64,000 nt of DNA, taken from NCBI GenBank assembly GCA_024642285.1, contig JAHEBJ010000003.1, forward strand, positions 62,001 through 126,000, written 5' to 3'. The notes under the pieces were generated by a model. That model was given only the letters and a program-made list of their open reading frames with translations. It was not told the DNA's origin and made no database searches. Numbering within the stretch: position 1 is the first letter of the stretch; each line of letters begins with the position of its first letter. This DNA is from Sphingobacteriales bacterium. GTDB taxonomy: Bacteria > Bacteroidota > Bacteroidia > Chitinophagales > Chitinophagaceae. Shown piece by piece: positions 6,052 to 23,365 of the stretch. The translations under genes and the position numbers were made by a program.

Positions 6052-6687
6052 TTAATGGTCAAACGCCGGGAGCAATTTTATTTCACTTCGATATAAAATA
6101 ATTTTTTTATTATTTTCCAGTTGCTTTAATAATCGGGAAATAACTACTCTTGATGTAGCCAGTTCATCGGCAATCATACTATGAGATACCTTGATAACAG
6201 CTGAGCCTGTAATTCGTTGTTTTTCTTTAAGATATTCAATCAGCCTTTCGTCGAGTTTATGAAATGCTATACTTTCTATTGATTTTAATAATTCTATAAA
6301 GCGCTCATTAAAACTACGCATAATGTAATTTTTCCAGCCTGGATATTTACATAACCATTCGTCCAGTTTTTCATGCGGTATAGCTATCAGTTCCACATCA
6401 TCTTCTGCAATGGCTTTTACTTCGCTTTTTTTGGCTTCAATACAACAACTGTAAGCCATGCTGCAGCTTTCGCTGCTGGTTAAATAGTATAATAAAATCT
6501 CATTTCCATTATCATCCAGTCTTGATACTTTTATCGTTCCTTTTAAAATTACCGGCATCATACGGATGTACTTTCCGTAATCCATAATAATATCCCCTTC
6601 TTTAAAATGCTGTATTATTCCCGATTCTTCTATTTCTTCAAGTAAGGCTGGTTCAAAAACAGCTGCTAAATTCTGTATCGCCGACAT
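6052..6687 (-). CDS. Crp/Fnr family transcriptional regulator of the sulfur island
   Basis: 211-residue cyclic-nucleotide-binding-fold regulator: a beta-barrel sensor at about 20-115, a dimerisation helix at 115-150, and a C-terminal winged HTH (SHSMIADELATSRVVISRLL, recognition helix near 178-190). It lacks the N-terminal four-Cys iron-sulfur set of FNR. It does carry C75, the vicinal pair C81-C82, and C113, which could sense persulfide or redox state (inference). It is the last gene of the twelve-gene sulfur operon, 5 bases after the porin gene. GTRAC-N4-GTTRC palindromes upstream of several sulfur genes are its likely targets, making it an autogenous activator. Confidence 0.85.
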   Translation of the reverse strand: MSAIQNLAAVFEPALLEEIEESGIIQHFKEGDIIMDYGKYIRMMPVILKGTIKVSRLDDNGNEILLYYLTSSESCSMAYSCCIEAKKSEVKAIAEDDVELIAIPHEKLDEWLCKYPGWKNYIMRSFNERFIELLKSIESIAFHKLDERLIEYLKEKQRITGSAVIKVSHSMIADELATSRVVISRLLKQLENNKKIILYRSEIKLLPAFDH

Positions 6688-8140: not shown

Positions 8141-8578
8141 TTAAAACCCGATTTTCAAATAACTCCAGCCTTGTTCCTCTTTCAATATAATTTCGCCAAT
8201 TCCCATGGGGACGGTACCTGCTTCGGCAACCAGCGATTCACGGGGGATTTTCTTTTCTCTCAGGGTGTTTTCGCAGCCCATGAAAACAATACCCATTTCT
8301 TTGTATTTGGTAATCAATTTTTGCTGGGTTGTTTTTGCCGCTATCAACATTTCTATTCCAGGGCCATGTGTCACCACTTCAATATTAACGCTATCGCCCC
8401 AGCCAGCTTTCAGGTTTTTAATATTATTCATCAGACTTTTCCAAACCAAAGTGTCGCTACTTGTCATATGCAGCACAACACGATGTTTGGCTGGCTCGGC
8501 AGTTTTATTCGTTTGCTGTTGTGCAAAACTGCCAAGCATTGTCATTACAAATAGTGCTGCAAGAAATAATTTTTTCAT
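8141..8578 (-). CDS. Periplasmic DsrE/DsrF-like protein
   Basis: 145 residues: a signal peptide (MKKLFLAALFVMTMLGSFAQ) followed by a DsrE/DsrF-like fold (HRVVLHMTSSDTLVWKSLMNNIKNL, VEVVTHGPG, MGIVFMGCENTLREKKIP). The conserved Cys in FMGCENTL corresponds to the persulfide-carrying position of the DsrE superfamily. ATG 8578 is chosen because it opens directly on the signal peptide; the frame continues upstream to 8623. DsrE-like proteins carry or transfer sulfane sulfur, so this may be the periplasmic sulfur carrier for the neighbouring SoxB-like enzyme, a role SoxYZ plays elsewhere (inference). Confidence 0.82.
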   Translation of the reverse strand: MKKLFLAALFVMTMLGSFAQQQTNKTAEPAKHRVVLHMTSSDTLVWKSLMNNIKNLKAGWGDSVNIEVVTHGPGIEMLIAAKTTQQKLITKYKEMGIVFMGCENTLREKKIPRESLVAEAGTVPMGIGEIILKEEQGWSYLKIGF

Positions 8579-8597
8579 AACCTTAATTTTAATTTTA

Positions 8598-10286: not shown

Positions 10287-10296
10287 GTTAAGCCAT

Positions 10297-11367
10297 TTAT
10301 TTTTTTACCAACGTTTTTTTTTCAGCCGCCTCATTTTTCTTTTGTGCTTCAAGGATAGGTTTAAACGGACCATATTTATGTTGCGCTTCAGAAAACTTAT
10401 CGGTATAAGGACCAGAGGGATGATCAACCGGTTTCTTCGAAATATCGGGCCAGTCGTTTGGTACGTTAATGTGTGGCCGCTTTTGCGAAACCACATAGGC
10501 TGCCACATCCCAGGCTTCTTCGTCGGTAAGCAAAGGCTCTTTATAGGTAGTGCCCAGCGGCATATTGTATTTTACATATTTTGCAAAATTACTCAGCCGG
10601 TATAAACCGGCGCCATCATTAAAACTGCTTTTACCCCACAAGGCCGAATATGTATATTCGTTTTTATCGATACTGAGCAGGCCTTCTCCGTTTTGCTGGT
10701 GACAGCTCTGGCATTTTGCTTTATATACTTCAATTCCCTTAACCGGATCGGCAGCCCGGTCCATAAAAGCGATATCTTTAAATCCGGAACCGGTAGCTTT
10801 TTCTCCTTTTTTTACATTTGACCCTAAAAAATTAATATACGAAACAATCGCCTGCATTTCAACACCGGCGGTATCAAGCGCATTGCCATTTAAACTTCTT
10901 TCAAAACAATCATTTACCCGTTTATAAATATTTTCGCTTGTGCCGCTTCTTGCCCTGAATTTTGGATAGAGCGAAGCAACCGAACCATAATTATTTCCGA
11001 AGATGGCAGTACCGGCTTGTAAATGACAGTTCTGACAATTTAATCCATTACTGATTTGTAAAACCGAACCTTTGGGGCCAAGATACTTTGCTGTATGTGC
11101 AATTAATTCTTTACCATACTCCACTTGTTTTTTCTTAACTGTATCGGCGATGGTATTTATATCGGGAGCTATCCAATACGCAACCGTATCTTCAGTATTA
11201 ACAATTACAGCTTTTGCTTTTTCTTTTTGCGAATTTTCGATATACCGCAACGCAAATGGCATGGCAATGATGCCGGCTAAAAGCACTACAATAATCAAAA
11301 TCAGTTTACTGATGATGGCAGTGAGTCCCTGAATAATGCTGTCCTGATCTTGCCCGTTGTTATACAT
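10297..11367 (-). CDS. tsdA: TsdA-like dihaem cytochrome c (thiosulfate dehydrogenase/tetrathionate reductase family)
   Basis: 356 residues with an N-terminal membrane anchor (about 20-40) and two c-type haem sites, CQNCH at 111-115 and CQSCH at 219-223. Between them are YPKFRARSG and NDCFERSLNG, the TsdA signature; C154 sits where TsdA uses an unusual Cys axial ligand to haem 1. SSFNDGAGLYRLSNFAKYVKYNMP in the second domain also fits. TsdA couples two thiosulfates to tetrathionate (or the reverse). The membrane anchor suggests electron flow to the respiratory chain. It is flanked by the YeeE/YedE genes and the SoxB-like gene in one operon. The direction of the reaction cannot be read from sequence. 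Confidence 0.85.
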   Translation of the reverse strand: MYNNGQDQDSIIQGLTAIISKLILIIVVLLAGIIAMPFALRYIENSQKEKAKAVIVNTEDTVAYWIAPDINTIADTVKKKQVEYGKELIAHTAKYLGPKGSVLQISNGLNCQNCHLQAGTAIFGNNYGSVASLYPKFRARSGTSENIYKRVNDCFERSLNGNALDTAGVEMQAIVSYINFLGSNVKKGEKATGSGFKDIAFMDRAADPVKGIEVYKAKCQSCHQQNGEGLLSIDKNEYTYSALWGKSSFNDGAGLYRLSNFAKYVKYNMPLGTTYKEPLLTDEEAWDVAAYVVSQKRPHINVPNDWPDISKKPVDHPSGPYTDKFSEAQHKYGPFKPILEAQKKNEAAEKKTLVKK

Positions 11368-11385: not shown

Positions 11386-11886
11386 TCAGTTTGGTAATTT
11401 TTCTCTGAAATACCCATATACCCAGGTACCGGCAACAGCACTCAAAATTGTAATTGCAATAACAGTTGCACCCGTTCCTAATTGAGCATATAATGGGCCG
11501 GGGCATGCACCGGTAATGGCCCAACCAAATCCAAATATCAGTCCGCCGTAGATCTGTCCTTTGTTAAATGTTTTTTTACCGAAGGTTATTGCTTCGCCGG
11601 AAATAGTTTTAATGTTGAATTTTTTGATCAGCCAAACCGAGATAATACCCACCACTATAGCGCTGCCAATAACTCCATACATATGAAAGCTTTGCAGTCG
11701 GAACATTTCCTGAATGCGGAACCAGCTGATAATCTCTGCTTTTACGAAAACAATTCCAAAAGCAAGGCCTACAATAAGGTATTTTAAATTGCTATACCAC
11801 TTTGTTTCTACTTCGCTGCTGTTTACACACATTGCATCAAGTGAGCGAACTTCAAAATCGGTATTTGTATCTGTATTATTTTGCAT
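11386..11886 (-). CDS. YeeE/YedE (DUF6691) half-transporter, C-terminal-type subunit
   Basis: 166-residue inner-membrane protein with about four to five hydrophobic segments and the conserved TGACPGPLYAQLGTG motif, whose Cys matches the pore cysteine of YeeE/YedE sulfur transporters. In Bacteroidota and many Proteobacteria the single YeeE (TsuA) chain is split into two adjacent half genes; this is the second half. It begins 9 bases after its partner. The probable substrate is thiosulfate or another sulfane-sulfur compound, moved across the inner membrane. Confidence 0.85.
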   Translation of the reverse strand: MQNNTDTNTDFEVRSLDAMCVNSSEVETKWYSNLKYLIVGLAFGIVFVKAEIISWFRIQEMFRLQSFHMYGVIGSAIVVGIISVWLIKKFNIKTISGEAITFGKKTFNKGQIYGGLIFGFGWAITGACPGPLYAQLGTGATVIAITILSAVAGTWVYGYFREKLPN

Positions 11887-11895
11887 ACTATTTTT

Positions 11896-12465
11896 TTAAA
11901 GCGATAAGATAAACGGAAGAATAAGATTGGCCATTATAAAACCACCCGACATAAAACAACAGGTAGCAATTAAGGATGGCATTTGTAAAGTAGATATACC
12001 CATAATGGCATGGCCGCTGGTACAACCACCGGCATAGCGGGTTCCAAAACCTACCAGGAAACCACCAACTACTATCATTATAAAACCTCTCAGCGTTAAT
12101 AATGCAGGCCAGTTAAATAAATCGTTTGGAACTAAGCCTGTAAGGTCGGTAATACCATAGCCGGCTAAATCAGCCGCCAGCTTGGGATGTATAACAACCG
12201 GATAAGGGTTCTCCAGAAAATTGACAGTGATCACTGCCCCGAAAAAAATACCCACCACAAAAAACATGTTCCAGATTTCTTTTTTCCAGTCATATTTAAA
12301 GAATGGGATATTGGCGGGCACACAGGCTGCACATACGTGGCGCAGCGACGAGCTGATACCAAATGACTTATTTCCTAATATTAACAATGTTGGCACTGTT
12401 AAACCAATTAACGGCCCTGCAACATACCAGGGCCAGGGTTGTTTGATCCACTCGAGTATACTCAT
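11896..12465 (-). CDS. YeeE/YedE half-transporter, N-terminal-type subunit
   Basis: 189-residue polytopic membrane protein with the family motif RYAGGCTSGHAIMGIS near residue 135-150, containing the conserved pore Cys, and a second Cys pair (VCAACVP) in an early loop. It pairs with the downstream half gene to give a complete pseudo-twofold YeeE/YedE channel. It sits between rhodanese and the second half in the sulfur operon. A hairpin at 12497-12517 just upstream may reduce read-through from the rhodanese gene. Confidence 0.86.
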   Translation of the reverse strand: MSILEWIKQPWPWYVAGPLIGLTVPTLLILGNKSFGISSSLRHVCAACVPANIPFFKYDWKKEIWNMFFVVGIFFGAVITVNFLENPYPVVIHPKLAADLAGYGITDLTGLVPNDLFNWPALLTLRGFIMIVVGGFLVGFGTRYAGGCTSGHAIMGISTLQMPSLIATCCFMSGGFIMANLILPFILSL

Positions 12466-12537: not shown

Positions 12538-12849
12538 TTATTTTACAAACTGATTTACATAATCCCAGGCACCGCCGTTAATTACATCAATAATTCCGTT
12601 TTGCTGCAAAATGCTTTTTGCCTGTCCGCTACGGGCACCGCTGCGGCACATTACAATAATGTTCTTTTTGTTTTTGAATTTTGAAATTTGCGTTCCCATT
12701 GAATCCAAAGGAATATTAACCGATCCCTTTACATGTCCGCCTGCAAATTCACCCGGTGATCTAACGTCCACCAGAAAAGCACCCTCTTCAATTATTGATT
12801 TCAAATCGACGGTAGGTGCCCCGCCGAAAAGTTTTTGTAATAAACTCAT
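12538..12849 (-). CDS. Single-domain rhodanese
   Basis: 103-residue cytoplasmic rhodanese: FLVDVRSPGEFAGGHVKGSVNIPLD (26-50) and the active-site loop VMCRSGARS with C68 as the persulfide-carrying cysteine. Such proteins move sulfane sulfur between low-molecular-weight thiols and protein acceptors. It is placed 10 bases after thioredoxin and before the YeeE transporter, consistent with handling sulfur that has been imported. The start at ATG 12849 matches the family. Confidence 0.92.
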   Translation of the reverse strand: MSLLQKLFGGAPTVDLKSIIEEGAFLVDVRSPGEFAGGHVKGSVNIPLDSMGTQISKFKNKKNIIVMCRSGARSGQAKSILQQNGIIDVINGGAWDYVNQFVK

Positions 12850-12859
12850 TTTTTTTGTT

Positions 12860-13162
12860 TTATTGATTAATTAAAAATTTTTTAAACACCCCAAGTAAAC
12901 CAGATTTATTTACCACCCCGCTCTGTCTCCACAATTGCTTACCATTTTTAAATAGTATTAAGGTTGGTACACCCTGCACCTGATAATGTTGTGCCGCCTG
13001 CGGACTTTGGTCCACATCCACTTTAATTATGGTAACCGCATCGCCAATTTCTTTTTTTACCTCTTTAAGAATGGGTGCCATCATTTTGCAGGGGCCACAC
13101 CACTCGGCCGAAAAATCAACCAGCACCGGTTTGTCAGATTGTATGATATCGTTAAACTTCAT
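12860..13162 (-). CDS. Thioredoxin
   Basis: 100-residue thioredoxin with [20 protein letters not shown] (C22 and C25 of the WCGPC redox site), the cis-proline GVPTLILF, and no signal peptide. The ATG at 13162 is chosen; the frame extends to a TTG at 13216 but the extra Lys-rich residues are unlike thioredoxins. It overlaps the stop of the upstream DUF6132 gene by 11 bases, suggesting translational coupling. It probably reduces persulfides formed on the neighbouring rhodanese or cysteine-containing membrane proteins. Confidence 0.93.
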
Positions 13163-13385
13163 TGCAACCTTCTTTTTTGATAATTTCCTCTTTCTTATCT
13201 TTTTTAAACATTCCAAAAAGGAGTGAACCCATTAAAGTACCGTATAATGTACTGTTAACCGGTTTTGATGTAATCATACAGGTACCAGAAACACATCCTA
13301 CCTGTTGCCAGTAAATATATCCCGCTATGGCCCCAACCAGCCCCCCAACGAGATAAAACATATTTTGTTTAAACCACTTCTTCAT
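13152..13385 (-). CDS. DUF6132 family small membrane protein
   Basis: 77 residues. One hydrophobic hairpin (about 8-27 and 47-60) encloses a loop with [12 protein letters not shown], two cysteines separated by five residues; the C-terminus is very Lys/Glu-rich and ends with a third Cys. It matches the DUF6132 family known from Bacteroidota sulfur and selenium loci; its function is unknown. It overlaps the gene before it by 17 bases and the gene after it by 11 bases. The paired cysteines hint at a role in membrane sulfur relay. Confidence 0.8.
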
Positions 13386-13605
13386 AGTTCACATCTTTAA
13401 TTGTGTCTGATTTTTTTTGTGGCGGAACGTAGCATCCGCTGGTACCGCAACAACCAACATTAAATAGTGGCATGGCAGTAAACAGAATTCCTAAAAATGC
13501 AAACATTACATCCCGGGCTAAAACGGCCTGAACCAGAATAGCTATTCCTATTCCTAATCTAAGAAACCGCATTAAATTCCAGTTTGTAAAAATTGTTTGT
13601 TTCAT
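13369..13605 (-). CDS. Small membrane protein with CCGTSGC motif, first gene of the sulfur operon
   Basis: 78 residues. Hydrophobic segments cover about 10-28 and 31-47, followed by FNVGCCGTSGC (three Cys) and a charged tail. I recognise the type from Bacteroidota genomes, where it accompanies rhodanese and DUF6132 genes, but it has no named function. ATG 13605 (MKQTIFTNWN) is used rather than the in-frame upstream codon at 13659, which would run into the operator. It is the promoter-proximal gene, 12 bases downstream of the -7 element's predicted start region. Confidence 0.72.
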   Translation of the reverse strand: MKQTIFTNWNLMRFLRLGIGIAILVQAVLARDVMFAFLGILFTAMPLFNVGCCGTSGCYVPPQKKSDTIKDVNYEEVV

Positions 13606-13622
13606 GTTATTAATTTCTGATG

Positions 13623-13666
13623 CAAACTTAATCCATATACACTGGCTATTAGGTAACAAAGGTTAC
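13623..13666 (-). promoter_or_regulatory. Promoter with Crp/Fnr-type operator of the twelve-gene sulfur operon
   Basis: On the - strand, GTAAC-CTTT-GTTAC (13666-13653) is a perfect inverted repeat. Its centre is 36.5 bases upstream of the last G of the -7 element TAAGTTTG (13630-13623). If transcription starts about five bases beyond the -7 element, the site is centred near -41.5, the classic class II Crp/Fnr activator position. The first gene starts at 13605. Confidence 0.72.
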
Positions 13667-13781
13667 AAATGCCATGTGCTCAATAAGCAGTTACTATTTT
13701 GCACATATATTTAAGCAATTATTGTAATCTGTTTAAATAAAAAGTAAAAAATGCACTATAATTTCTACATTAATTTGTCAA

Positions 13782-15395
13782 TTATTTTTCTATTTTTATT
13801 TTTTGACTGGATGAAGTATGCCGGATTTTAAGACTAACCCAAAAAATATCACCAGGCTTCATACCCTTGATTGTATTTGCAACAGAATGCACCCCGGGTT
13901 TCAGACTTTTCAAAGTTTTCTTTTTTAGGATTTCCCCATTGTAGTCCGCAATGGCAATTTCTACAGTTGTATTTTCGGCGAGTGTAAAATTTATCAAAAA
14001 TGTTTTTTCGTTGACATCCGGAAAAACCTGTAATTGAAGTCCATTATTACTTTGAATATTTAGTTTATCTGAAACACCATCTGTATTTTTTATTAAATAC
14101 ACTTTAAATAATTTGTTGCTTGCATTACTCTCCTCGCCTGTATTTATAAAAAATATATTAGGCAATGAGCTAGCTATCCCCCCGTAAATATGTCCTACAA
14201 GCGTTGTATCGGTATTAAGCTCATCCAATTTTACAACTTTATTCGGATAGTGCGGAACAACGGGCAATAAAATAAACTCTGAGCCGGCACCCAACAAAGC
14301 GGGCATTTCAACAGGTAATTTATATTCTGCCAATTTCCCTTCCCTGTTTCTGGTTACTCTTGATATGGTTTTTACAAAAGGAACCTCGTCACTCTGAACA
14401 AGAACATTGGCACTATCGTAATATTGAGCAATGCCGCCGAAAACAATGTTGTGCATATCGCTTTTACTACTGCTGAAAACGGGCAACACTGCACTGTGAT
14501 AGTGATTATAATACTGGGCAAACGAATGATCGACCGAGTATGATTTATTGGAGATGGTTACACTATTTAAAAAAGGTATTCTGGCATTTGTTTGAAATAC
14601 ACCTGAAAAAACCGACAATGCCTCTTCTCCGCTATTTATTATCTGAGGTACAACGTTATAATCTCTTCTGTGAAATGCATCTGCGTCTGTAATCGTTTCA
14701 TAATTACCGATACTGATATTTTTACCATCGTCGGCAATCGTAAATTTTCTTACCTGATCTGTGTATTGCTGAAAAAATCCGGGTCCATGATCGGGCCCCA
14801 TCGGGTTATATCTGCCCATAAATTTTTGTCCGCCTACCAGGTAATACGTATCTCCCATTTTCTTCAAATGGCCACCAGTAACTGCAAAAGCAGTATCTGC
14901 AATTTGTCTGAAATACGGCTGAAGTGAGGAATTATTTAAAACTGCATTTATAATTTCAGGAACATCAACAGCCGTTAATTTATCGTAAGTAATAAATTTC
15001 CCTGAGCTTTCGCTAAACCCATATCCTCCAACCAGGTAAAGGATTTTCCCGTTTTGAAAAAACTGCATATTTGTTGAACTCAACTGGTCTTTTAAATCAT
15101 TATTAAGTGCTGTTATTGTAGATTCCCATTTTTTCTGATTTACCGGATCAATTACAGTAAGTACAGTATTTTTTCCAGCGGGCCTGAATGCCCCAAATGG
15201 CTGCCGCATATGCAGGCCGTCTGTTCTGCCGCCAATAATTAACCACATACCATCAGCTTGCCCATATGCATATGACTGAACTCCTTTTAGTCCCGGTATA
15301 TCAACAGACTTTATTACAATTTGAAACGGCGCCGTCTGAGCATAGATTGTTATCGCTGATGATAAAGAAATCAGCAGCAAAATAAAATATTTCAT
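13782..15395 (-). CDS. Secreted kelch-like protein with T9SS-type C-terminal domain
   Basis: 537 residues with a signal peptide (MKYFILLLISLSSAITIYAQ). Repeated GG-centred beta-blade motifs (WLIIGGRTDG, LYLVGGYGFSES, YYLVGGQKFMG, NIVFGGIAQYY, HIYGGIA) indicate a kelch-type beta-propeller spanning about 30-430. The last 85 residues (LQVFPDVNEKTFLINF… to the Lys-rich end) look like a type IX secretion sorting or related beta-sandwich domain. So it is probably exported or surface-attached. It follows dps by 5 bases, an unusual pairing. No catalytic residue set is recognised. Confidence 0.75.
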   Translation of the reverse strand: MKYFILLLISLSSAITIYAQTAPFQIVIKSVDIPGLKGVQSYAYGQADGMWLIIGGRTDGLHMRQPFGAFRPAGKNTVLTVIDPVNQKKWESTITALNNDLKDQLSSTNMQFFQNGKILYLVGGYGFSESSGKFITYDKLTAVDVPEIINAVLNNSSLQPYFRQIADTAFAVTGGHLKKMGDTYYLVGGQKFMGRYNPMGPDHGPGFFQQYTDQVRKFTIADDGKNISIGNYETITDADAFHRRDYNVVPQIINSGEEALSVFSGVFQTNARIPFLNSVTISNKSYSVDHSFAQYYNHYHSAVLPVFSSSKSDMHNIVFGGIAQYYDSANVLVQSDEVPFVKTISRVTRNREGKLAEYKLPVEMPALLGAGSEFILLPVVPHYPNKVVKLDELNTDTTLVGHIYGGIASSLPNIFFINTGEESNASNKLFKVYLIKNTDGVSDKLNIQSNNGLQLQVFPDVNEKTFLINFTLAENTTVEIAIADYNGEILKKKTLKSLKPGVHSVANTIKGMKPGDIFWVSLKIRHTSSSQKIKIEK

Positions 15396-15400
15396 AGCTA

Positions 15401-15877
15401 TTAATTTTTAAGAAAAGCAGAATACATCCATACTGATTTTTCCTGTGCCCTTATGTAATCACTCATCAGTGCATTGGTGCCTTCATCATTAGCATCTGCC
15501 GAAAGGTTCAGCAATTCACGCTGTAAAGAAATAACAGTTTTAAACGAGGCCAGTATTTGCTCCACTGCTTTTACGCCATCAGAAACTTTAGTACTTTCTT
15601 TAATAGCAGATATTTTATTGTACGTAGAATAATTATGTTCCGGAGCGTAACCCAGGGTTAATATCCGTTCAGCCACTTCATCAACTTTCAGTAAAAGATC
15701 ATTAAATAATTCTTCAAATTTGAGATGTAATTCAAAAAATTTCTCTCCTTTTATATTCCAGTGAAACCCCCTTGTGTTCTGATAAAAAACAGAATAATTT
15801 GCCAAAAGATTATTCAACTTTTTTGCCAATTTCTCCGACTTGTCTTTATCAAGCCCTATAGCGTTTGTGCTTTTCAT
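15401..15877 (-). CDS. dps: Dps-family ferritin-like DNA-protection protein
   Basis: 158-residue four-helix ferritin-like protein. The Dps signature FHWNIKGEKFFELHLKFEELFND carries the inter-subunit ferroxidase ligands (H39, H51, E55 and the acidic residues after it). Dps dodecamers oxidise Fe(II) with peroxide and protect DNA. The gene heads a two-gene unit with the kelch protein. Its placement inside the sulfur island suggests a response to oxidative stress during sulfide oxidation, although no clear GTAAC-N4-GTTAC site is seen at its promoter. Confidence 0.93.
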   Translation of the reverse strand: MKSTNAIGLDKDKSEKLAKKLNNLLANYSVFYQNTRGFHWNIKGEKFFELHLKFEELFNDLLLKVDEVAERILTLGYAPEHNYSTYNKISAIKESTKVSDGVKAVEQILASFKTVISLQRELLNLSADANDEGTNALMSDYIRAQEKSVWMYSAFLKN

Positions 15878-16100
15878 AATTTATTATTTATACTTAAATT
15901 TATTTTAACAAGGAGAACATCGAAATGGTTTATTAACAAACCATTTACCATTCAACAGCACGACAATGAAATAACTGAATTCTGTTTTATAAAATAATTA
16001 CAATTCTGTTACCAATATTGCAGTTAATTATCCTTCCCTTAAAGCAATTTGTTTATAAGCATATATTTGGATGAACCCGCTTATAAAATATTAACCCATT

Positions 16101-16122
16101 GATTCAGACGCCAGCCTGAATC
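16101..16122 (-). terminator. Hairpin overlapping the stop of the DUF2892 gene
   Basis: GATTCAG (16101-16107) and CTGAATC (16116-16122) form a 7-bp stem with an 8-base loop. Seven T residues follow on the + strand; on the - strand the following bases are AT-rich but not a clean T run. It ends the DUF2892 unit or blocks transcription running the other way. Confidence 0.42.
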
Positions 16123-16327
16123 ATTTTTTTGCCGTGAAGGAATTCAATCCTACAAGTGTATATAAAGGGCAAAAGCTCACAAAACTGGTTAATACAAAAA
16201 CAGCACCTAATACCAACAGCACTATACCTGCTACGCCGGTAACGGTGCTTGTAAAATACAAAACGCCAAAAACAACGGCCAATAATAAACGGATAATCCG
16301 ATCTGTGTTTCCTATATTTTTTTTCAT
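16121..16327 (-). CDS. DUF2892 (YgaP-like transmembrane) protein
   Basis: 68 residues: N-terminal MKKNIGNTDRIIRLLLAVVFG, two hydrophobic segments (about 12-27 and 30-48) and the typical CPLYTLVGLNSFTAKK end. DUF2892 is the membrane-anchor part of the YgaP rhodanese and occurs as a free-standing protein in Bacteroidota, often beside rhodaneses and sulfide oxidation genes. It lies 131 bases downstream of the sulfide:quinone reductase gene on the same strand and may share its transcript. Confidence 0.85.
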   Translation of the reverse strand: MKKNIGNTDRIIRLLLAVVFGVLYFTSTVTGVAGIVLLVLGAVFVLTSFVSFCPLYTLVGLNSFTAKK

Positions 16328-16458
16328 AGCACTATTTATTTTTAATTAAACAAAAAAATTATTGACTAAATATTGAAACCACCGGGTATACCAACAACAA
16401 GCATAATATACAAATGATTAAAAACTTCAACCAACGACGTAGTTTCTTCATTATTCAA

Positions 16459-17661
16459 TTATGCTGTACCCTTCAAGATTTTATGCCAATACAGCCAGGG
16501 CAATACTTTTGTCTTCAGCATCCACATGGTCCATCTTGGTTTTGCCTGGTTGAATGGGAATGTCATTTTTGGGGTATTGCTGTAATCAAATTCTGCAAGC
16601 ATCAGTTTGCCATATTTAGTAGGTATTGGGCATGCACTGTATCCTTCATATTTTGCTGTAATTGGTTTATTGTTGAGAAAGGCCAGCACATTTTCTGTTA
16701 CTACAGGTGCCTGTTTACGAATAGCTGCACCGGTTTTACTGGCTGGTGCACTGCTGCTGTCACCAAGTGAAAACACATTGGAGTAACGGGTATGTTGCAA
16801 CGTATGCATATCAACCTCTACATAACCATAAGGATTTTTAGGATCGGCCAACTGGCTTTTCTTTATAAAATCAGGAGCCGATTGCGGTGGAACCGCATGG
16901 CAGATATCAAAATGAAGTTCTTTTCGTTCTGCTTGTCCTGATTCATTCTTTTGTTCGTAAAATACTTTTTTATTGGCTGCGTCAATTTCTACTACATCAG
17001 CTTTATAAATTGGTTGAATATTATCTTCAGCAATTACTTTTTTCAAAGTCTCGGCGTATTCAGGAATACCAAAAATTACCCCACCGCCAGAAATATAATA
17101 GACATTGGTTTTATCCAGTATGCCTTGCTTGCGCCAGTAATCACAGGCCAGATACATAATCTTATGCGGTGCGCCGCCGCACTTTATTGGTGTTGATGGA
17201 TTAGTGAAAACTGCATTACCACCTTTAAAATTTTTAATCATCTGCCAGGTATAGGGAGCAAACTCATGCGAATAATTTGAGCTTACATTGTTTTTACCCA
17301 ATGTTTCTTTAAGGCCTTTAATCTTTTGCCAGTCTAATTGAATACCGGGGCAAATAATAAGTACATCATAAGTATACGATGTTCCCTTTTGTGTTACCAG
17401 CTTGTTTGCATCCGGAATAAATTCCATCACTGCATCCCTTACCCATGTAGTTCCTTTTGGAATATAATCTGCTTCTTTTTTTATGGTATCGTTCACATCA
17501 TAAATACCAGCCCCTACCAGAGTCCAGGCGGGTTGATAATAATGTGTTTCAGAAGGATCGAATATGGTTATTTGCAGACTTTTATCTTTTATTAAAAGCT
17601 TAGAAGCTACAGAAAGACCTGCATTTCCTCCACCAACTATAGCTATTTTTTTTGCTGACAT
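16459..17661 (-). CDS. sqr: Sulfide:quinone oxidoreductase, type II (human SQOR-like)
   Basis: 400-residue FAD-dependent oxidoreductase that oxidises sulfide to sulfane sulfur and reduces quinone at the membrane. Visible are the FAD-binding IVGGGNAGLSVAS (8-20), YYQPAWTLVGAG (41-52), the redox cysteines C161 (STPIKCGGAP) and C344 (YSACPIP), NVFSLGD (295-301, FAD), and a C-terminal amphipathic WLYWHKILKG tail for membrane docking. These features match the mitochondrial/type II subgroup rather than bacterial type I. Such enzymes use glutathione, CoA or another thiol acceptor, and the CstB-like proteins upstream would consume the persulfide. A Crp/Fnr-type operator precedes it. Confidence 0.92.
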   Translation of the reverse strand: MSAKKIAIVGGGNAGLSVASKLLIKDKSLQITIFDPSETHYYQPAWTLVGAGIYDVNDTIKKEADYIPKGTTWVRDAVMEFIPDANKLVTQKGTSYTYDVLIICPGIQLDWQKIKGLKETLGKNNVSSNYSHEFAPYTWQMIKNFKGGNAVFTNPSTPIKCGGAPHKIMYLACDYWRKQGILDKTNVYYISGGGVIFGIPEYAETLKKVIAEDNIQPIYKADVVEIDAANKKVFYEQKNESGQAERKELHFDICHAVPPQSAPDFIKKSQLADPKNPYGYVEVDMHTLQHTRYSNVFSLGDSSSAPASKTGAAIRKQAPVVTENVLAFLNNKPITAKYEGYSACPIPTKYGKLMLAEFDYSNTPKMTFPFNQAKPRWTMWMLKTKVLPWLYWHKILKGTA

Positions 17662-17683
17662 GATAAACTGTTTTTATGTATTG

Positions 17684-17727
17684 TAAATCTACAATAAACA
17701 ATTCCGCCTGTTGGTGACTTTTGTTAC
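17684..17727 (-). promoter_or_regulatory. Promoter with Crp/Fnr-type operator of sqr
   Basis: On the - strand GTAAC-AAAA-GTCAC (17727-17714) lies with its centre 36.5 bases upstream of the end of a -7-like element TAGATTTA (17691-17684). The spacing is the same as at 13623-13666. The sqr start is at 17661. Confidence 0.65.
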
Positions 17728-17859
17728 GTTATCTTCAATATTCACATGATTGTAATCATAGCAAGAGTAGCTACTGATCAGCTGCCTGATTGATCTTTTA
17801 CCAAATAAAATTTTCGCCTTGGTTTTATAGCCGCTTGAATTCTACCATGTCAACTGATA

Positions 17860-18456
17860 TTATGTCTTAATTCCTATAAATCTGACAACTTCAGCATTTC
17901 CATCATGATGCCTGCCCTCTTTGAGTTCAATCTGTTTTTTTTCCAGCAACTTTATATCCAATTCTTCAAAATCGGTTCTAAGCATTTCCGTAGTATATAA
18001 CATTGTTATATCCTGCGGTCCGCCACTTAAATTTCCAAGTTGGTTGGGATTAAACGCTTCTAACAGCATTATGCCGCCTGGTTTTAACCATTTTATTGCT
18101 TTTTGGTGAATGGCAGTTCTGATTTCCGGAGGAAAATGAGCAAAAATAAAAGCAACTATATCTGCCCCATTTTCAGGATAAGCTGCATGCATTGCGTCTG
18201 AAATGTCGTAATTTATAGATGCCACTTTTTTATTTGCTAAGGCGACAGCCTTTGTTTTTCCCGCAGTACTGTTGTCAAAAGCATGTACTTTCCATCCCAA
18301 GACTGCAGCGTAAACTGCATTTCTTCCTTCACCCTCGCAGGGCAGAATAATTTTTCCGGGATTCAAATTACTTAACTTTTCAGCAAAGAAAACATTGGGG
18401 TCTTCACCATAAACATATTCTTCGCCACCAAAACGTTCATCCCAATAATTACTCAT
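17860..18456 (-). CDS. Class I SAM-dependent methyltransferase (TehB-like)
   Basis: 198 residues. The N-terminus MSNYWDERFGGEEYVYGEDPN is typical of this small-molecule methyltransferase family. Motif I is degenerate (ILPCEGEGRNAVYAAVLG, the SAM glycine loop at about 37-54), then VHAFDNS (motif II acid) and LKPGGIMLLEAFNP (post-III) follow. Relatives methylate small thiols, tellurite or unknown substrates. It stands between sqr and the first CstB-like gene, isolated from the latter by a strong terminator at 18517-18564, so it has its own promoter. The substrate is not known; a thiol is plausible from context. Confidence 0.85.
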   Translation of the reverse strand: MSNYWDERFGGEEYVYGEDPNVFFAEKLSNLNPGKIILPCEGEGRNAVYAAVLGWKVHAFDNSTAGKTKAVALANKKVASINYDISDAMHAAYPENGADIVAFIFAHFPPEIRTAIHQKAIKWLKPGGIMLLEAFNPNQLGNLSGGPQDITMLYTTEMLRTDFEELDIKLLEKKQIELKEGRHHDGNAEVVRFIGIKT

Positions 18457-18516
18457 TTTTTATATTTTAAAAGCAAACATAATAATTGATTCGGGTTCTG
18501 TTTTATTGCATTATCT

Positions 18517-18564
18517 AATCAAATAAACAAAAGTTGCCTTTCGGCAACTTTTGTTTATTTGATT
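18517..18564 (-). terminator. Strong bidirectional intrinsic terminator
   Basis: Arms 18517-18538 and 18543-18564 are perfect 22-bp inverted repeats separated by a TTTC loop. The GC part (GTTGCC/GGCAAC) is at the tip and the flanks are A/T tracts, so the hairpin works on either strand. It lies 32 bases past the stop of the first CstB-like gene (- strand) and before the methyltransferase. Confidence 0.85.
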
Positions 18565-18596
18565 GTGAAAAAGAATCCTCATGCTTGAACAAAAAA

Positions 18597-20012
18597 TTAA
18601 GCCTTCATCAATTTACTCTGGCATACAAAATCAGTTTTAAGAACTGCAGTTTCACTTATAGCCTTAAAGCCTCCGGCTATTTCGGTAAAATTCCGGTATC
18701 CCCGTGCCTGCAAAATAGATGCTGCAATCATGCTGCGGTAGCCACCTGCACAGTGAATAAAGAAATGTTCTTCGGGATTGATATCCTTTACCCACTCATT
18801 TATCATTGCCAGAGGTTTGTTAAATGCTTCGTCCACATGCTCGGCTGCATACTCGGTATCTTTACGTACATCAATTACTAAATCTTCTTTAACATTTACC
18901 TTCGCTGCAAATTCATCGGCCGTAATCCTGTCAACAGTATCGGGTTCTTTACCGGCTGCAAGCCATGCTTCAAATCCGCCTTTCAAATGTCCCATCACAT
19001 TATCAAAACCTACACGGCTTAACCGGGTTACTGCTTCTTCTTCTTTTCCGAGGTCGGTAACCAGCAGTATCGGCTGTTTAACATCAACGATCATCGAGCC
19101 CACCCATGGTGCAAAATCGCCGTTCAATCCGATGTTGACGGATTGTGGTATAAATCCTTTGTAAAAATCTTTATTGTCTCTTGTATCCAAAATCAGGGCC
19201 TCGGTACTTTCTGCGGCCGTTTCAAATTCATCAGGCGTTAAAGCCCGCATACCATTATTTAAAATGGTTTCAAAACTTTCAATCCCTTTTTTATTCATCG
19301 CTACATTCATTCCAAAATAACCGGGAGGCGGTTGCAAACCATCGGTAACTGCTTTTACAAAAGCTTCTTTGTTTGGCTGGTTCAATGCATAATTCATCTT
19401 CTTTTGGTTGCCCAATGTATCCACGGTTTCCTTCATCATATTTTTTCCACAGGCACTACCTGCGCCATGTGCAGGATAAACAATTACATCATCGGCCAGT
19501 GGCATAATTTTATTATTGAGACTATCATATAAAATTCCAGCCAGGTCTTCCATCGTCATACTTGCAGCCTTTTGTGCCAGGTCGGGCCGTCCAACATCAC
19601 CCAGAAACAATGTATCACCGCTGAAGATGCAATGGTCTTTACCCTTTTCATCTTTCAACAAATAGGTGGTACTTTCCATTGTATGGCCAGGTGTATGCAA
19701 CACTTTTATTGTTAGTTCGCCTATTTTGAATTCTTCTCCATCTTTAGCAGAAATAAATTCAAACTCAGGGTTTGCATTTGGTCCATAAACGATGGAAGCA
19801 CCGGTTTTTCTTGCCAGATCTACATGACCCGATACAAAATCGGCATGGAAATGGGTTTCGAAAATATATTTCAGTGTGACGCCATCTTTTTGCAGCCTGT
19901 CTAAATAGGGTTGCGTTTCACGAAGCGGATCAATAATTGCTGCTTCGCCCTTACTCGTAATGTAATAAGCACCTTGTGCCAAACATCCGGTATAAATCTG
20001 TTCAATATTCAT
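18597..20012 (-). CDS. CstB-like persulfide dioxygenase-rhodanese fusion, copy 1
   Basis: 471 residues: an N-terminal metallo-beta-lactamase fold (1-250) with T-H54-F-H56-A-D58, H110 (HTPGH), D132 (SGDTLF) and H182; a central rhodanese homology domain (about 265-350); and a C-terminal rhodanese with active-site C421 (HCAGGYRS). This is the CstB/PRF layout, in which an ETHE1-like iron site oxidises thiol persulfide to sulfite and the rhodanese makes thiosulfate. The central domain has T319 where copy 2 has Cys, so it is catalytically silent. ATG 20012 (MNIEQIYTGC) aligns with copy 2; the frame opens at 20042. An operator of the sulfur regulon precedes it. Confidence 0.9.
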   Translation of the reverse strand: MNIEQIYTGCLAQGAYYITSKGEAAIIDPLRETQPYLDRLQKDGVTLKYIFETHFHADFVSGHVDLARKTGASIVYGPNANPEFEFISAKDGEEFKIGELTIKVLHTPGHTMESTTYLLKDEKGKDHCIFSGDTLFLGDVGRPDLAQKAASMTMEDLAGILYDSLNNKIMPLADDVIVYPAHGAGSACGKNMMKETVDTLGNQKKMNYALNQPNKEAFVKAVTDGLQPPPGYFGMNVAMNKKGIESFETILNNGMRALTPDEFETAAESTEALILDTRDNKDFYKGFIPQSVNIGLNGDFAPWVGSMIVDVKQPILLVTDLGKEEEAVTRLSRVGFDNVMGHLKGGFEAWLAAGKEPDTVDRITADEFAAKVNVKEDLVIDVRKDTEYAAEHVDEAFNKPLAMINEWVKDINPEEHFFIHCAGGYRSMIAASILQARGYRNFTEIAGGFKAISETAVLKTDFVCQSKLMKA

Positions 20013-20039
20013 AATCTGTAAAATTTTATTTTTGTTATG

Positions 20040-20083
20040 CAAATATCAGATCATAATCCAATAGTTTTAGTAACAAATGTTGC
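20040..20083 (-). promoter_or_regulatory. Promoter with Crp/Fnr-type operator of CstB-like copy 1
   Basis: On the - strand GCAAC-ATTT-GTTAC (20083-20070) is centred 36.5 bases upstream of the end of the -7 element GATATTTG (20047-20040). This is the same geometry as the promoters of sqr, tauE and the twelve-gene operon. Confidence 0.65.
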
Positions 20084-20135
20084 ATTTCGTAAAATCAGAA
20101 GCTTTTTTATTTGGGCCTATCTATTAAAAAACAAA

Positions 20136-20170
20136 AACCTGCCCCCGGAAAATTGTTCCGGGGTCAGGTT
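20136..20170 (-). terminator. Intrinsic terminator after CstB-like copy 2
   Basis: Arms 20136-20150 and 20156-20170 pair over 15 positions with a single C/T mismatch and a 5-base loop. The stem is GC-rich (CCCCGG core) and is flanked by A residues on the left, which are a T run on the - strand. It lies 17 bases past the stop of copy 2; T residues at 20175-20180 make it usable from the other side too. Confidence 0.82.
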
Positions 20171-20187
20171 ATGCTTTTTTGAAAATA

Positions 20188-21603
20188 TTATAACATGGTG
20201 GTGGGGCAAACATACTCCGACCGTGGTACATCCGTTGTTGCTATTTCCTTAAACCCGCCAATCACATCTGTAAAATTATCCCAACCCCGTTGTTTAAGAA
20301 TAGAAGCGGCAATCATACTGCGATAGCCACCAGCACAATGCAGGATAAATGGTTTGTTTTTTGGAAATTCAGCCAGGTGGTTATTGATTTCATTTAATGG
20401 AATGTTCACAGCATCAACTATATGTTCTGAATCGTATTCACTTTTCTTCCTTACATCAATCGTTAATTGTTTTGAAGCAATATGTATTCTGGCATATTCG
20501 GCAGCAGTAATTCTTTTTATACTATCGAGTCCTTTTCCGGCCCTTTTCCAGCTATCTATGCCGCCATTGAGATAACCAATAGTGCCATCGTAACCAACTC
20601 TCGACAAACGTATCATAGCTTCTTCTTCCTTTTCAGGATAACAAACCAATAAAATATGCTGTTTAATATCGGGAATCATTTCGCCAACCCATTGTGCAAA
20701 ATTTCCTTCCAACCCAATGTTAATACTATTTGGAATAAATCCTGAAGCAAAATCAGATGCATCACGTGTATCCAGTACCAATGCCTCTGTTTCATTGGCA
20801 ACTGCTTCAAATGCTTCGGCAGTTAATCCTTTGTGCCCCCGCTCCAAAACGGTATCCAGACTTTCGTAACCCTGTATATTCATCAATACATTCTTAGGAA
20901 AGTAGCCCGGGGGTGGGGTTAAACCCGTGAGGATTGCTTTTTTAAATTCTTCTTTAGTTAATGCGGGGTTCAACGCATAATTCACTTCTTTCTGATGACC
21001 TAGTGTATCAGTTGTTTCTTTGCTCATATTTTTTCCGCAGGCACTGCCGGCACCATGATTGGGATAAACGATCAGATCGTCACTGAGGGGCATAATTTTA
21101 TTTCGCAGGGAATCATAAAGGTGTCCTGCCAGTTTATCTTCGGTAAGATCTTCTACCACATGTTGTGCAAGATCTGGCCTGCCCACATCACCAATAAATA
21201 AAGTATCGCCAGTTATGATGCCATGTTGTTTCCCTATTTCATCTGTCAATAAATACGTTGTGCTCTCCATAGTATGGCCGGGTGTATGTATCACTTTCAC
21301 TTTATAATTTCCCACTTCAAATACCTGGTTGTCAGATGCCTTGATAATTTCGTACGCAGGGTTTGCTGTAGGGCCATACACAATTTTTGCACCGGTCTTT
21401 TTTGCCAGATCCAAATGACCGCTTACAAAATCTGCGTGGAAATGGGTAAGAAAAACATACTTGATTTTTGCCTTATCCTTTACAGCTTTATCTATGTAAG
21501 GCTGCACTTCCCTGAGCGGATCAAAAATGGCCGCTTCGCCGTTGTTCTCAATATAATATGCTGCATGAGCAATACATCCCGTATAAATTTGTTCTACTTT
21601 CAT
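20188..21603 (-). CDS. CstB-like persulfide dioxygenase-rhodanese fusion, copy 2
   Basis: 471 residues, collinear with copy 1 over the whole length (tandem duplication, diverged). The metal site is T-H54-F-H56-A-D58, H110, D133 and H183; the second His of a classic HxHxDH motif is Phe59, as in other members with a mononuclear iron site. The central rhodanese domain retains a Cys (C321 in LLVCYPEKEEE), and the C-terminal rhodanese has C423 in HCAGGYRS. So this copy may have two sulfur-relay cysteines, unlike copy 1. It has its own promoter region and terminator. Role: oxidation of thiol persulfides to sulfite/thiosulfate in the cytoplasm. Confidence 0.9.
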   Translation of the reverse strand: MKVEQIYTGCIAHAAYYIENNGEAAIFDPLREVQPYIDKAVKDKAKIKYVFLTHFHADFVSGHLDLAKKTGAKIVYGPTANPAYEIIKASDNQVFEVGNYKVKVIHTPGHTMESTTYLLTDEIGKQHGIITGDTLFIGDVGRPDLAQHVVEDLTEDKLAGHLYDSLRNKIMPLSDDLIVYPNHGAGSACGKNMSKETTDTLGHQKEVNYALNPALTKEEFKKAILTGLTPPPGYFPKNVLMNIQGYESLDTVLERGHKGLTAEAFEAVANETEALVLDTRDASDFASGFIPNSINIGLEGNFAQWVGEMIPDIKQHILLVCYPEKEEEAMIRLSRVGYDGTIGYLNGGIDSWKRAGKGLDSIKRITAAEYARIHIASKQLTIDVRKKSEYDSEHIVDAVNIPLNEINNHLAEFPKNKPFILHCAGGYRSMIAASILKQRGWDNFTDVIGGFKEIATTDVPRSEYVCPTTML

Positions 21604-21684
21604 GATGCAAGATTTTGTAATTTTAAAAATATAAATCGATTATTTTTTTCTTTGTAAAAAAAGAAAAAATAACCCTTTAAATGA

Positions 21685-21698
21685 GTTACAATTGTTAC
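21685..21698 (-). promoter_or_regulatory. Degenerate Crp/Fnr-type site upstream of CstB-like copy 2
   Basis: On the - strand GTAAC-AATT-GTAAC (21698-21685) has one good half and one mismatched half relative to GTAAC-N4-GTTAC. A -7-like TATTTTTT occurs at 21671-21664, closer than in the other four promoters, so this copy may be regulated differently. Confidence 0.4.
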
Positions 21699-21848
21699 AA
21701 TATAAAATGATTCTGATCAGTATATCACCTGATGCCGATCAGGTATTATCTCCAAAAGGCGGGTAATGAAAAGGCATGATTTTCTATAATTCATTAACAA
21801 AATCATTAAAAGGAGACTTGTTTTATTATGTGAAAGACGAAAGCCGAA

Positions 21849-22481
21849 TTACTTTTTCCGGAGATTTATAAACAGCTCAGTACCCTTTCGTTTTATAAAC
21901 GAATTGTGGCAAAGTTCAAATACTGAAGATTGAAACCATTGATTAAATAAAGGTTCGTACTGACATTTGCATCCTCCAAAAGGAGGCCCTTTGTGCTCAA
22001 ATTCACGGTCGAACAATACGCCAACGAGTTTACCCCCCGGTGCAAGTAACTTATTCATCTTTGCTGCATAGTCTTTTCGCAAAGGCGGATTGATGGCACA
22101 AAAAAAAGTTTGTTCAAGTATCAGATCATACTCCCCTTCATGCTCAAAAAAATCACCCAGAATAATATTAATACCTTGATTACCAGCAAATTTTTCTTTA
22201 AGCTGCTTGACTAATATCGGTGCAATATCAATTATCGTGATATTTGAAAATCCGTTTTGCAAAAGATATTCAGCTTCGTATGTATTTCCACAACCCGGAA
22301 TTAATATACGCAGATTTTTATCAGTAAGCTGATCGATATATGCTTTTATAGGAGGAGAAACTTCTCCCAGATCCCAACCAGTGGAATTTGCCTCGTATTG
22401 ATTGTTCCAGTATGTTTCGCCCAGCGGTAGATCGCAGGTTACTAAACAACATTTTTCCGATTCTTTTATTTCTTCATGCAT
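21849..22481 (-). CDS. TPMT-family thiol S-methyltransferase-like protein
   Basis: 210 residues with thiopurine-methyltransferase family motifs: ETYWNNQYEANSTGWDLGEVSPP (22-45), ILIPGCGNTYEAEYL (SAM motif I), DLILEQTFFCAINPPLRKDYA, GGKLVGVLFDREF and the family's GPPFGG. Bacterial TPMT-like enzymes methylate thiols, selenols, tellurite or halides. The gene follows tauE by 17 bases and is very likely cotranscribed with it under the sulfur operator. Methylation of sulfide or methanethiol as a detoxification branch is a plausible but untested role. Confidence 0.85.
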   Translation of the reverse strand: MHEEIKESEKCCLVTCDLPLGETYWNNQYEANSTGWDLGEVSPPIKAYIDQLTDKNLRILIPGCGNTYEAEYLLQNGFSNITIIDIAPILVKQLKEKFAGNQGINIILGDFFEHEGEYDLILEQTFFCAINPPLRKDYAAKMNKLLAPGGKLVGVLFDREFEHKGPPFGGCKCQYEPLFNQWFQSSVFELCHNSFIKRKGTELFINLRKK

Positions 22482-22498
22482 CTGCAGTAATAATCTGA

Positions 22499-23299
22499 TT
22501 ATTTCAAAAATAGTTCTTTAATAATTATATAGATTCCCATTATCAGCACAAACCAGCCAAAGCCCTTTTTCAGATGATTGCCATGAATTTTTTTAGATAA
22601 TAAAATGCCAATAAATATACCAGCTACGGCAAAGCCTGTAAAAACACCTAATAGTTTCCAGTCAATTACTTCACTTCCCTGTATATCACCTATAAATCCT
22701 ATCAGCGATTTAACGGCTATTATAAATAACGAAGTACCCACCGCTAATTTCATTGGCATACGTGCCAATAAAACCAAAGCCGGAATAATTAAAAAGCCGC
22801 CGCCTGCACCAACAAGCCCGGTTAATACGCCTACCACAGCCCCCTCCAGTAAAATCATCGGATAATTATAAGTGATTTTTTCATGCTCTTCCACCGCTTT
22901 ATTTTTTGATGGCTTAATCATACTATATGAAGCCAGAATCATTACAATGGCAAATAAAATCATTAATGCAATGGGCTTTGTAAATACAAAAGATCCGGTA
23001 CTAAATATTACATCTGGGATTACCGGAACCAACCAAAGTCTTGTTGCATAAACAGCCGCAATAGACGGTATTCCAAATATCAACACTGTTTTAAAATCTA
23101 CTTTTTTTTGCAGGGCACTTTGCACACCTCCAACAAGCGCTGTAGAACCAACAATAAATAAAGAATAGGCCGTTGCCAATACCGGATTAACGCCCATTAC
23201 GTAAACCAGGATAGGTACTGTTAAGATCGAGCCTCCACTTCCAATTAACCCAAGCGAAACGCCAACTAACATTGCCAATAAATAACCTAGAATCTCCAT
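22499..23299 (-). CDS. TauE/SafE family sulfite/organosulfonate exporter
   Basis: 266 residues, eight predicted membrane segments in two repeats. The family glycine motifs are GxxLGLIGSGGSILTVPILVY (near 13-33) and GLVGAGGGFLIIPALVLL (near 159-178). TauE/SafE proteins export sulfite or sulfoacetate. Given the CstB-like enzymes, which release sulfite, export of sulfite fits. It heads a two-gene unit with the TPMT-like gene and has an operator-promoter of the regulon at 23322-23365. Confidence 0.9.
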   Translation of the reverse strand: MEILGYLLAMLVGVSLGLIGSGGSILTVPILVYVMGVNPVLATAYSLFIVGSTALVGGVQSALQKKVDFKTVLIFGIPSIAAVYATRLWLVPVIPDVIFSTGSFVFTKPIALMILFAIVMILASYSMIKPSKNKAVEEHEKITYNYPMILLEGAVVGVLTGLVGAGGGFLIIPALVLLARMPMKLAVGTSLFIIAVKSLIGFIGDIQGSEVIDWKLLGVFTGFAVAGIFIGILLSKKIHGNHLKKGFGWFVLIMGIYIIIKELFLK

Positions 23300-23321
23300 A
23301 ATAAAAAAATTTAAGTGTGTG

Positions 23322-23365
23322 CAAAGATGAGCTTATAAATATAAAGACTGTGTGACAATAGTTAC
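23322..23365 (-). promoter_or_regulatory. Promoter with Crp/Fnr-type operator of tauE-TPMT unit
   Basis: On the - strand GTAAC-TATT-GTCAC (23365-23352) is centred 36.5 bases upstream of the end of the -7 element CATCTTTG (23329-23322), matching the other three strong sites exactly. A further GTAAC-like half (AGTAACACC on the + strand, 23371-23379) is adjacent. tauE starts at 23299. Confidence 0.7.

Follow-up and report, generated by a model that had tools for sequence, protein, structure and literature searches.

A putative Crp/Fnr-type operator at one fixed distance from the -7 element in the promoters of a Bacteroidota sulfur island

Introduction

How are the sulfur genes of a Bacteroidota genome switched on, and how much of the answer can be read from the DNA itself? 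The question is raised by an island of sulfur genes in a 64,000-nucleotide stretch of a Sphingobacteriales bacterium (contig JAHEBJ010000003.1, positions 62,001 to 126,000), the whole of which we call the window. Palindromes of the GTAAC-N4-GTTAC type stand upstream of five island promoters, and a gene for a Crp/Fnr-type regulator lies within the same island. To our knowledge, few Bacteroidota transcription factors have a defined operator. A strict rule, in which the operator is followed by 22 bases and then by TAnnTTTG, makes a sulfur regulon readable from raw sequence.

Results

Operators of the sulfur island

All five operators and their -7 elements are on the minus strand. Operator 1 (13653-13666; forward letters GTAACAAAGGTTAC, promoter-strand letters GTAACCTTTGTTAC) serves the operon at 13605-6052, operator 2 (17714-17727; GTGACTTTTGTTAC and GTAACAAAAGTCAC, in the same order) serves sqr, operator 3 (20070-20083; GTAACAAATGTTGC and GCAACATTTGTTAC) serves cstB-like copy 1, operator 4 (21685-21698; GTTACAATTGTTAC and GTAACAATTGTAAC) serves cstB-like copy 2, and operator 5 (23352-23365; GTGACAATAGTTAC and GTAACTATTGTCAC) serves tauE-TPMT. 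The original prediction had put the centre of four of these palindromes, those of operators 1, 2, 3, and 5, exactly 36.5 bases from the last base of a -7 element, and inspection of the sequence confirms this, with site coordinates exact to the base. The -7 element of operator 1 (13623-13630, last base 13623; TAAGTTTG) matches TAnnTTTG at 6/6 positions, and those of operators 2 (17684-17691, last base 17684; TAGATTTA), 3 (20040-20047, last base 20040; GATATTTG), and 5 (23322-23329, last base 23322; CATCTTTG) match at 5/6 only. On the promoter strand, each of the four sites reads as the operator, 22 bases, and a TAnnTTTG-like element. Operator 4, the weakest, has a weak -7-like element at 36.5 (21655-21662; TTTTTTTA; 4/6 match).

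Within the window, the pattern GTNACN4GTNAC is observed five times vs 0.32 expected, a count that none of 100 shuffles attains; the pattern skips the site at 20070 and takes in an unrelated site at 34594. Scored with a matrix derived from 134 sites at 63 of the 77 relatives' loci (see below) and not from the window, the five operators are the window's top five sites (18.2-30.5 bits; 30.5, 27.3, 28.3, 18.2, and 24.6 bits for operators 1 to 5, respectively), and 20 Markov copies of the window give at most 13.6 bits. The copy ahead of cstB-like copy 2, previously called degenerate, is therefore among the five best. The only other window matches of at least 8 bits are the 20070 site read in reverse (14.0 bits, barely above 13.6) and a site at 49635 (8.2 bits). 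The half-sites are of the NtcA-like GTA-N8-TAC type and not of the TGTGA type of CRP, which refines the earlier reading.

Recurrence of the spacing

A relative of the regulator is encoded at 78 loci, of which 77 are close (68-86% identity, L039-L115; 1.31 Mb in total) and one, L116, is at 38%; elsewhere in this text, 78 loci means the 77 close relatives plus the window. The 77 relatives' loci contain 90 palindromes vs 8 for the reversed control, with no palindrome in 21 of them. When both orientations of the sites in these loci are considered (180 oriented sites), a perfect TAnnTTTG is found at 36.5 in 52 of 60 matches, and the next-best of the 66 spacings has 3. Matches of at least 5/6 number 83 at 36.5 vs at most 7 at any other spacing. 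In a phylum-wide search, 119 of 395 genomes yielded regulator-like proteins at 1e-35, and the 90 loci used (L177-L266) gave, with a wildcard palindrome, 68 sites at 36.5 and no more than 10 at any other spacing.

At one locus (L044:4911-4924), a -7-like element lies 36.5 bases away on either side of a single palindrome, ahead of two divergent genes, and this operator may serve two promoters.

Taken alone, the palindrome shows no enrichment in the bacterium's own 3.18 Mb genome: there are 11 exact GTRACN4GTYAC places vs 23 for the reversed control, and 223 vs 534 when one mismatch is allowed. Because these counts are below the control, we rejected the palindrome by itself as evidence. Three of the 11 exact places are in the island; seven of the remaining eight are within open reading frames, and the last falls between convergent genes, within a repeat that resembles a hairpin. 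Restricting the one-mismatch search to A/T-rich cores, a subset of the 223 places, yielded the five island sites, five of the eight exact outside places, 37 others, and one further window place not called by the matrix scan. The sample outside the island (44 stretches with flanks, 166,806 bases, at most one mismatch) has a -7 element of at least 5/6 at 36.5 in only 1 of 65 oriented sites, and that one is intragenic. The original prediction was to fall if the motif at this spacing were equally common before unrelated genes; among the own-genome places examined, it was not. A chance origin of the spacing was rejected on the histograms in relatives and on this own-genome sample.

The regulator and its likely signal

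The regulator gene (6052-6687, minus strand) is the last gene of operon 1. Its product has a cNMP-binding-like domain and HTH_Crp_2, with cysteines Cys75, Cys81, and Cys82 and the residues R180-V181-R185. Both domains score above cut-off (PF00027, 37 bits; PF13545, 29.8 bits), and Foldseek, whose matches are 3dv8, NtcA, and CAP, agrees with membership in the Crp/Fnr family. The protein misses the cut-offs of the NtcA equivalog TIGR03697 (48.7 vs 244.95 bits) and of the CRP equivalog NF008732 (39.8 vs 266 bits). The AlphaFold model (mean pLDDT 85.8) has a helix at 180-192.

In an alignment of 223 regulators (duplicates are retained in these cysteine counts and in the residue and letter counts below), Cys75 is present in 223/223, Cys81 in 187/223, and Cys82 in 139/223, and cysteine occurs in >15% of members only at positions 75, 81, 82, and 113. 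Cys75 and Cys81 are thus conserved cysteines of the sensor domain, and in alignments with NtcA and 3dv8, the stretch with Cys75, Cys81, and Cys82 falls in the effector-loop region. Because Cys75 is invariant, we infer that the regulator is a thiol-based reactive-sulfur sensor. FNR has its Fe-S cluster cysteines near the N terminus, and the positions above do not form such a set. We take the Arg-Ser motif of the cyclic-nucleotide pocket to fall, by alignment to CRP, at positions 87-88. Ser88 is found in 221 of the 223 regulators, and the preceding position is K in 120, T in 44, P in 18, and R in 7, so that the Arg-Ser pair is not conserved; on this ground, cAMP was judged unlikely to be the signal. 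The most likely signal would be reactive sulfane sulfur or a persulfide, since the targets in the island are genes of sulfide oxidation and sulfur transport together with rhodanese-type and Sox-like ones.

The targets in relatives extend this list. In the 78 loci, 141 oriented sites are followed by a -7 element (at least 4/6) and then by an open reading frame, and they define ten target clusters of at least two members. The largest are an outer-membrane efflux protein (35), the 78-residue membrane protein encoded first in operon 1 (33), cstB-like (27), and YgaP-type (11) proteins, followed by DUF983 (5), TauE (4), SQR-like (3), DUF6132 (3), TPMT-like (2), and one unnamed cluster (2). Beside the clusters are 16 single targets, many of which are probably due to chance. 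Of 89 loci selected solely by the regulator (L178-L266, generally 3.6 or 6.6 kb long), 31 have cstB-like genes, 30 TauE, 13 YeeE-type, and 48 at least one of these. Adding 20 loci picked because a regulator lies near cstB (109 loci) gives 89 operators that have a -7 element, and for 77 of these the next gene matches a reference list of 23 proteins (cstB, 29; TauE, 27; others, 21). Neighboring cstB genes were recounted via their metallo-beta-lactamase half; the counts for rhodanese (42) and CoA-disulfide-reductase-like proteins (38) were not used because the rhodanese domains of both queries can match cstB-like genes.

The outer-membrane efflux gene heads an OEP-MFP-RND operon, and since the operator stands ahead of it in 35/78 loci, the signal may not be confined to sulfur. 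Under such an alternative, the regulator would respond to another thiol stress (electrophiles, oxidants, or metals) or to anaerobiosis, and the sulfur genes would belong to a broader detoxification regulon together with the RND pump. We consider this possible but on the unlikely side, given that the remaining target clusters are cstB-like, TauE, SQR, YgaP-type, and the 78-residue membrane protein, and that the conserved cysteines are not an FNR-like N-terminal Fe-S set. A sulfur regulator tied to an efflux pump would be an unexpected link. The efflux operon (OEP, HlyD-type MFP, and AcrB-type RND) is near the regulator gene, for example at L088:751-6804 and L097:3300-9346, and also encodes a 102-residue protein without a Pfam match and often a YgaP-type membrane protein. 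In the bacterium's own genome, a search at 1e-20, run without a positive control, found no match to the RND outer-membrane protein, and we therefore do not claim the efflux part of the regulon for this genome.

Link between the regulator and the operators

The operator arrangement follows the presence of the regulator. We examined 60 stretches around cstB-like genes: 20 with a close regulator, 20 with a distant regulator near cstB, and 20 further ones, of which 3 come from genomes with a regulator at 1e-30 and 17 from genomes without. The arrangement is present in 14/20, 16/20, 2/3, and 1/17 of these, respectively, or anywhere in the stretch in 32/43 with the regulator vs 1/17 without. Stretches with the regulator tend to be longer, and four (L127, L137, L142, and L143) have the site ahead of a TauE-like gene instead of cstB; a count restricted to sites directly before cstB is therefore fairer, and gives 28/43 vs 1/17 (P = 3e-5).

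The operator letters also follow the regulator's recognition helix. R180 is found in 222/223 and R185 in 221/223 regulators, the remainder being alignment gaps, and residue 181 is V in 143, E in 77, A in 2, and missing in 1. V181 pairs with GTAAC half-sites and E181 with GTGA. In the first set of loci, the third half-site base is A 202, G 30, T 32, and C 2 at V181 loci (133 sites, 73 loci), and G 64 and A 8 at E181 loci (36 sites, 24 loci). Counted per locus, V181 goes with A at 70, with G at 2, and with a tie at 1, and E181 goes with G at 20, with A at 2, and with a tie at 2. The phylum-wide set gives A 39 and G 4 for V181, and G 47 and A 29 for E181.

One close orthologue, at L051 (operators at 8661-8745, regulator at 10001-10627), is the sole one with E181; its operators, GTGACCTTTGTCAC and GTGACATAAGTTAC, are of the GTGAC type, a natural specificity switch.

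The pairing was also evaluated on a tree of 212 regulators built with residue 181 masked, with operators known at 148. The best tree contains 7 independent V/E contrasts. Of 300 random pairings, 274 give 6 concordant contrasts and 26 give 5, and none gives an opposed one (sign test for 6/6 concordant, P = 0.031). In this first count, a locus with equal A and G was scored as G, a choice made after the ties had been seen. A strict-majority rerun, which omits the ties (25 E, 1 V), gave the same pairing result on 122 loci (V181 with A 88 and G 4; E181 with G 28 and A 2). The first set alone (93 loci) has 4 contrasts, 2 of them on supported branches. Loci L010-L013, taken as duplicates, were omitted from all trees, and L177 and L221 from the 212-regulator analyses too; the contrast analyses omit L222 and L230 (two regulators) and L140 and L141 (residue 181 neither V nor E), and L114 lacks residue 181.

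These computations show that residue 181 covaries with the operator half-site. Together with the presence/absence counts, they favor the original assignment of the operators to the regulator inside the island, and with the spacing histograms and the own-genome controls they speak for a sulfur regulon, as proposed; that the regulon is sulfur-responsive is something we infer. Another Crp/Fnr paralogue might instead bind the operators, leaving the island regulator with different targets. Bacteroidota genomes have several Crp/Fnr proteins, with 6 candidates in this genome on first look, and genomes with a V-type regulator can also hold an E-type paralogue (e.g., G122 and G188). However, the island regulator is the sole Crp/Fnr protein of this genome to pass 1e-30, and both the covariation and the presence/absence counts point to its clade. 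On the 1e-30 search and the covariation, another cellular Crp as the binder was judged unlikely, and we regard this alternative as improbable.

Class II layout and proposed mechanism

The operator of a class II activator is centered at -41.5. In Flavobacterium psychrophilum, the TAnnTTTG box is at -12 to -5, according to an excerpt of PMC9723704, and together with the 36.5 spacing this places the operator center at -41.5. We found this placement at a single fixed distance from the core promoter, with the position derived via F. psychrophilum start sites. Along with the spacing histograms, it supports the class II placement of the original prediction, and the layout would be that of a class II activator. 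Promoters of Bacteroides fragilis have TTTG at -33, and in Flavobacterium johnsoniae a -33 motif was not identifiable (both from part of PMC7366714). The 3' half-site of the operator covers about the place of the B. fragilis -33 TTTG. Among our sites, which were chosen for both boxes, no conserved element, a -33 element included, lies between the operator and the -7 element.

We propose that the 6052-6687 protein would bind, as a homodimer, to GTAAC-N4-GTTAC operators centered at -41.5, where the operator would take the place of the -33 element in a promoter that otherwise has a TAnnTTTG -7 element only. The bound regulator would recruit RNA polymerase to such a promoter and turn on sqr, the two cstB-like genes, tauE-TPMT, and the sulfur operon 13605-6052. 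Because the regulator gene is the last in its own target operon, autoactivation is expected. Cys75, usually with Cys81, would sit at the effector site of other Crp proteins and respond to reactive sulfane sulfur or a persulfide. We give a probability of about 0.82 to the reading that the protein is a class II activator at the -41.5 operators of the island sulfur genes with this signal.

The regulator might also repress these promoters or act on them in both ways, as the operator covers the -33 position and a bound protein could block polymerase; yet strict placement at -41.5 and an absent -33 element are what class II activation needs, and a repressor needs no exact distance, which makes this alternative quite improbable. 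It is barely credible that the spacing was inherited, without functional meaning, from one ancestral promoter copied with its genes: the loci are related, and related promoters have features in common, but the products of the ten clusters are unrelated or only distantly related, the 22-base spacers average 23-55% identity within a cluster, a second spacing is nowhere apparent, and the operator letters track the regulator, so that the exact distance is not merely copied sequence.

Several observations pull against activation by a sulfur-sensing island regulator or against parts of that proposal. Besides the lack of enrichment of the bare palindrome in the genome and the efflux operon as a target, the cysteine loop (residues 71-90) is the least certain part of the regulator model (pLDDT 67). 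In genomes that lack the regulator at 1e-30, the cstB-like genes are often more distant paralogues; at a cstB identity of at least 60%, the arrangement is found in 25/37 vs 1/8 (P = 0.006), and any site in 29/37 (P = 0.0009). As to residue 181, many E-type sites of the second set are mixed, with one G and one A half-site, and 25 of 55 E-type loci are tied; the operators near the E-type regulators of L017 and L020 are still mainly of the A type; and supported branches leave 5 contrasts, with about 4.3-4.4 concordant, 0 opposed, and a median P of 0.125.

A wider proposal, to which we give even odds, is that Crp/Fnr proteins whose effector pocket has become a cysteine sensor (C75 and C81) may detect sulfane sulfur across Bacteroidota, acting from -41.5 as class II activators of sulfide oxidation, sulfur transport, and RND efflux genes, with residue 181 and the operator repeatedly switching together. 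The arrangement suggests how class II activation fits a Bacteroidota promoter, and V or E at residue 181 provides a natural one-residue specificity switch.

Gene content of the island

The first operon had been described as having twelve genes; we counted 11 open reading frames. The genes of this operon and the other predicted targets are on the minus strand. The operon begins with a small membrane protein (13369-13605; no Pfam match), the family of which follows the operator in 33/78 loci, and continues with a DUF6132 protein (13152-13385; PF19628, 25.8 bits, above cut-off), a thioredoxin (12860-13162) and a rhodanese (12538-12849), both by domain match, and the two parts of a YeeE/YedE-type sulfur transporter (11896-12465, PF04143; and 11386-11886, DUF6691 by domain match). 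Next are a SoxA/TsdA-like cytochrome c (10297-11367; PF21342 and PF00034), a SoxB-like metallophosphoesterase (8598-10286; 251 bits, below the SoxB cut-off of 550), a small protein that is DsrE-like by resemblance only (8141-8623; no family match), and an OprD-like outer membrane porin (6693-8117; PF03573), followed by the regulator gene.

The remaining predicted targets are a type III-like sulfide:quinone reductase (sqr, 16459-17661; Pyr_redox_2; 245 bits, below the cut-off of 525), cstB-like copies 1 (18597-20012) and 2 (20188-21603), each with metallo-beta-lactamase and rhodanese domains, a TauE/SafE permease (22499-23299; PF01925, 141.8 bits), and a TPMT-family S-methyltransferase (21849-22481; PF05724, 97.3 bits; below the NCBIfam equivalog cut-off). 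A second methyltransferase gene of the island, TehB/Methyltransf_25-like, is at 17860-18456; presumably, both methyltransferases may methylate sulfide or thiols. Directly downstream of sqr is a gene for a YgaP-type membrane protein of 68 residues (16121-16327; PF11127), which is probably in the sqr operon.

Discussion

The regulator has the same fold as Escherichia coli CRP, whose operator at class II promoters is also centered at -41.5 and whose Glu181 reads GTGA half-sites. The -41.5 center matches the placement found here, and the GTGA/Glu181 pair matches the E-type members of the present family. Unlike CRP, the window regulator has Val at 181, and its variable position 87 makes cAMP unlikely. 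Its nearest relative of known structure is PDB 3dv8, a Crp/Fnr protein of Eubacterium rectale, which belongs to a distant phylum; cysteines of 3dv8 align with Cys75 and Cys81, but the entry is titled only "putative transcriptional regulator."

Among sensors of reactive sulfur, CstR belongs to the CsoR family and SqrR/BigR to the ArsR family. CstR, SqrR/BigR, and the sigma-54 activator FisR control similar sulfide oxidation genes, but they belong to protein families other than Crp/Fnr. The excerpt of PMC7315123 names all of these as persulfide sensors, describes none as Crp/Fnr, and presents BigR as a repressor that controls yeeE-yedE-pdo2. If the signal is indeed sulfane sulfur, a further sensor family would be added to them. 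In the open-access literature, as covered by titles and abstract openings, we found no description of a Crp/Fnr regulator of Bacteroidota sulfur genes.

The closest parallel in operator design is NtcA, whose site GTAN8TAC is centered near -41.5, as given in part of PMC3898017. GTAAC-N4-GTTAC fits the NtcA consensus, and both proteins have R-V at the aligned positions of the recognition helix. In contrast to NtcA, the regulator described here has sulfur and not nitrogen genes, cysteines in the effector loop, and the Bacteroidota -7 element TAnnTTTG. Class II activation by a Crp/Fnr protein at an NtcA-like site would be of a known kind, here adapted to a Bacteroidota promoter and put to use in a sulfur regulon.

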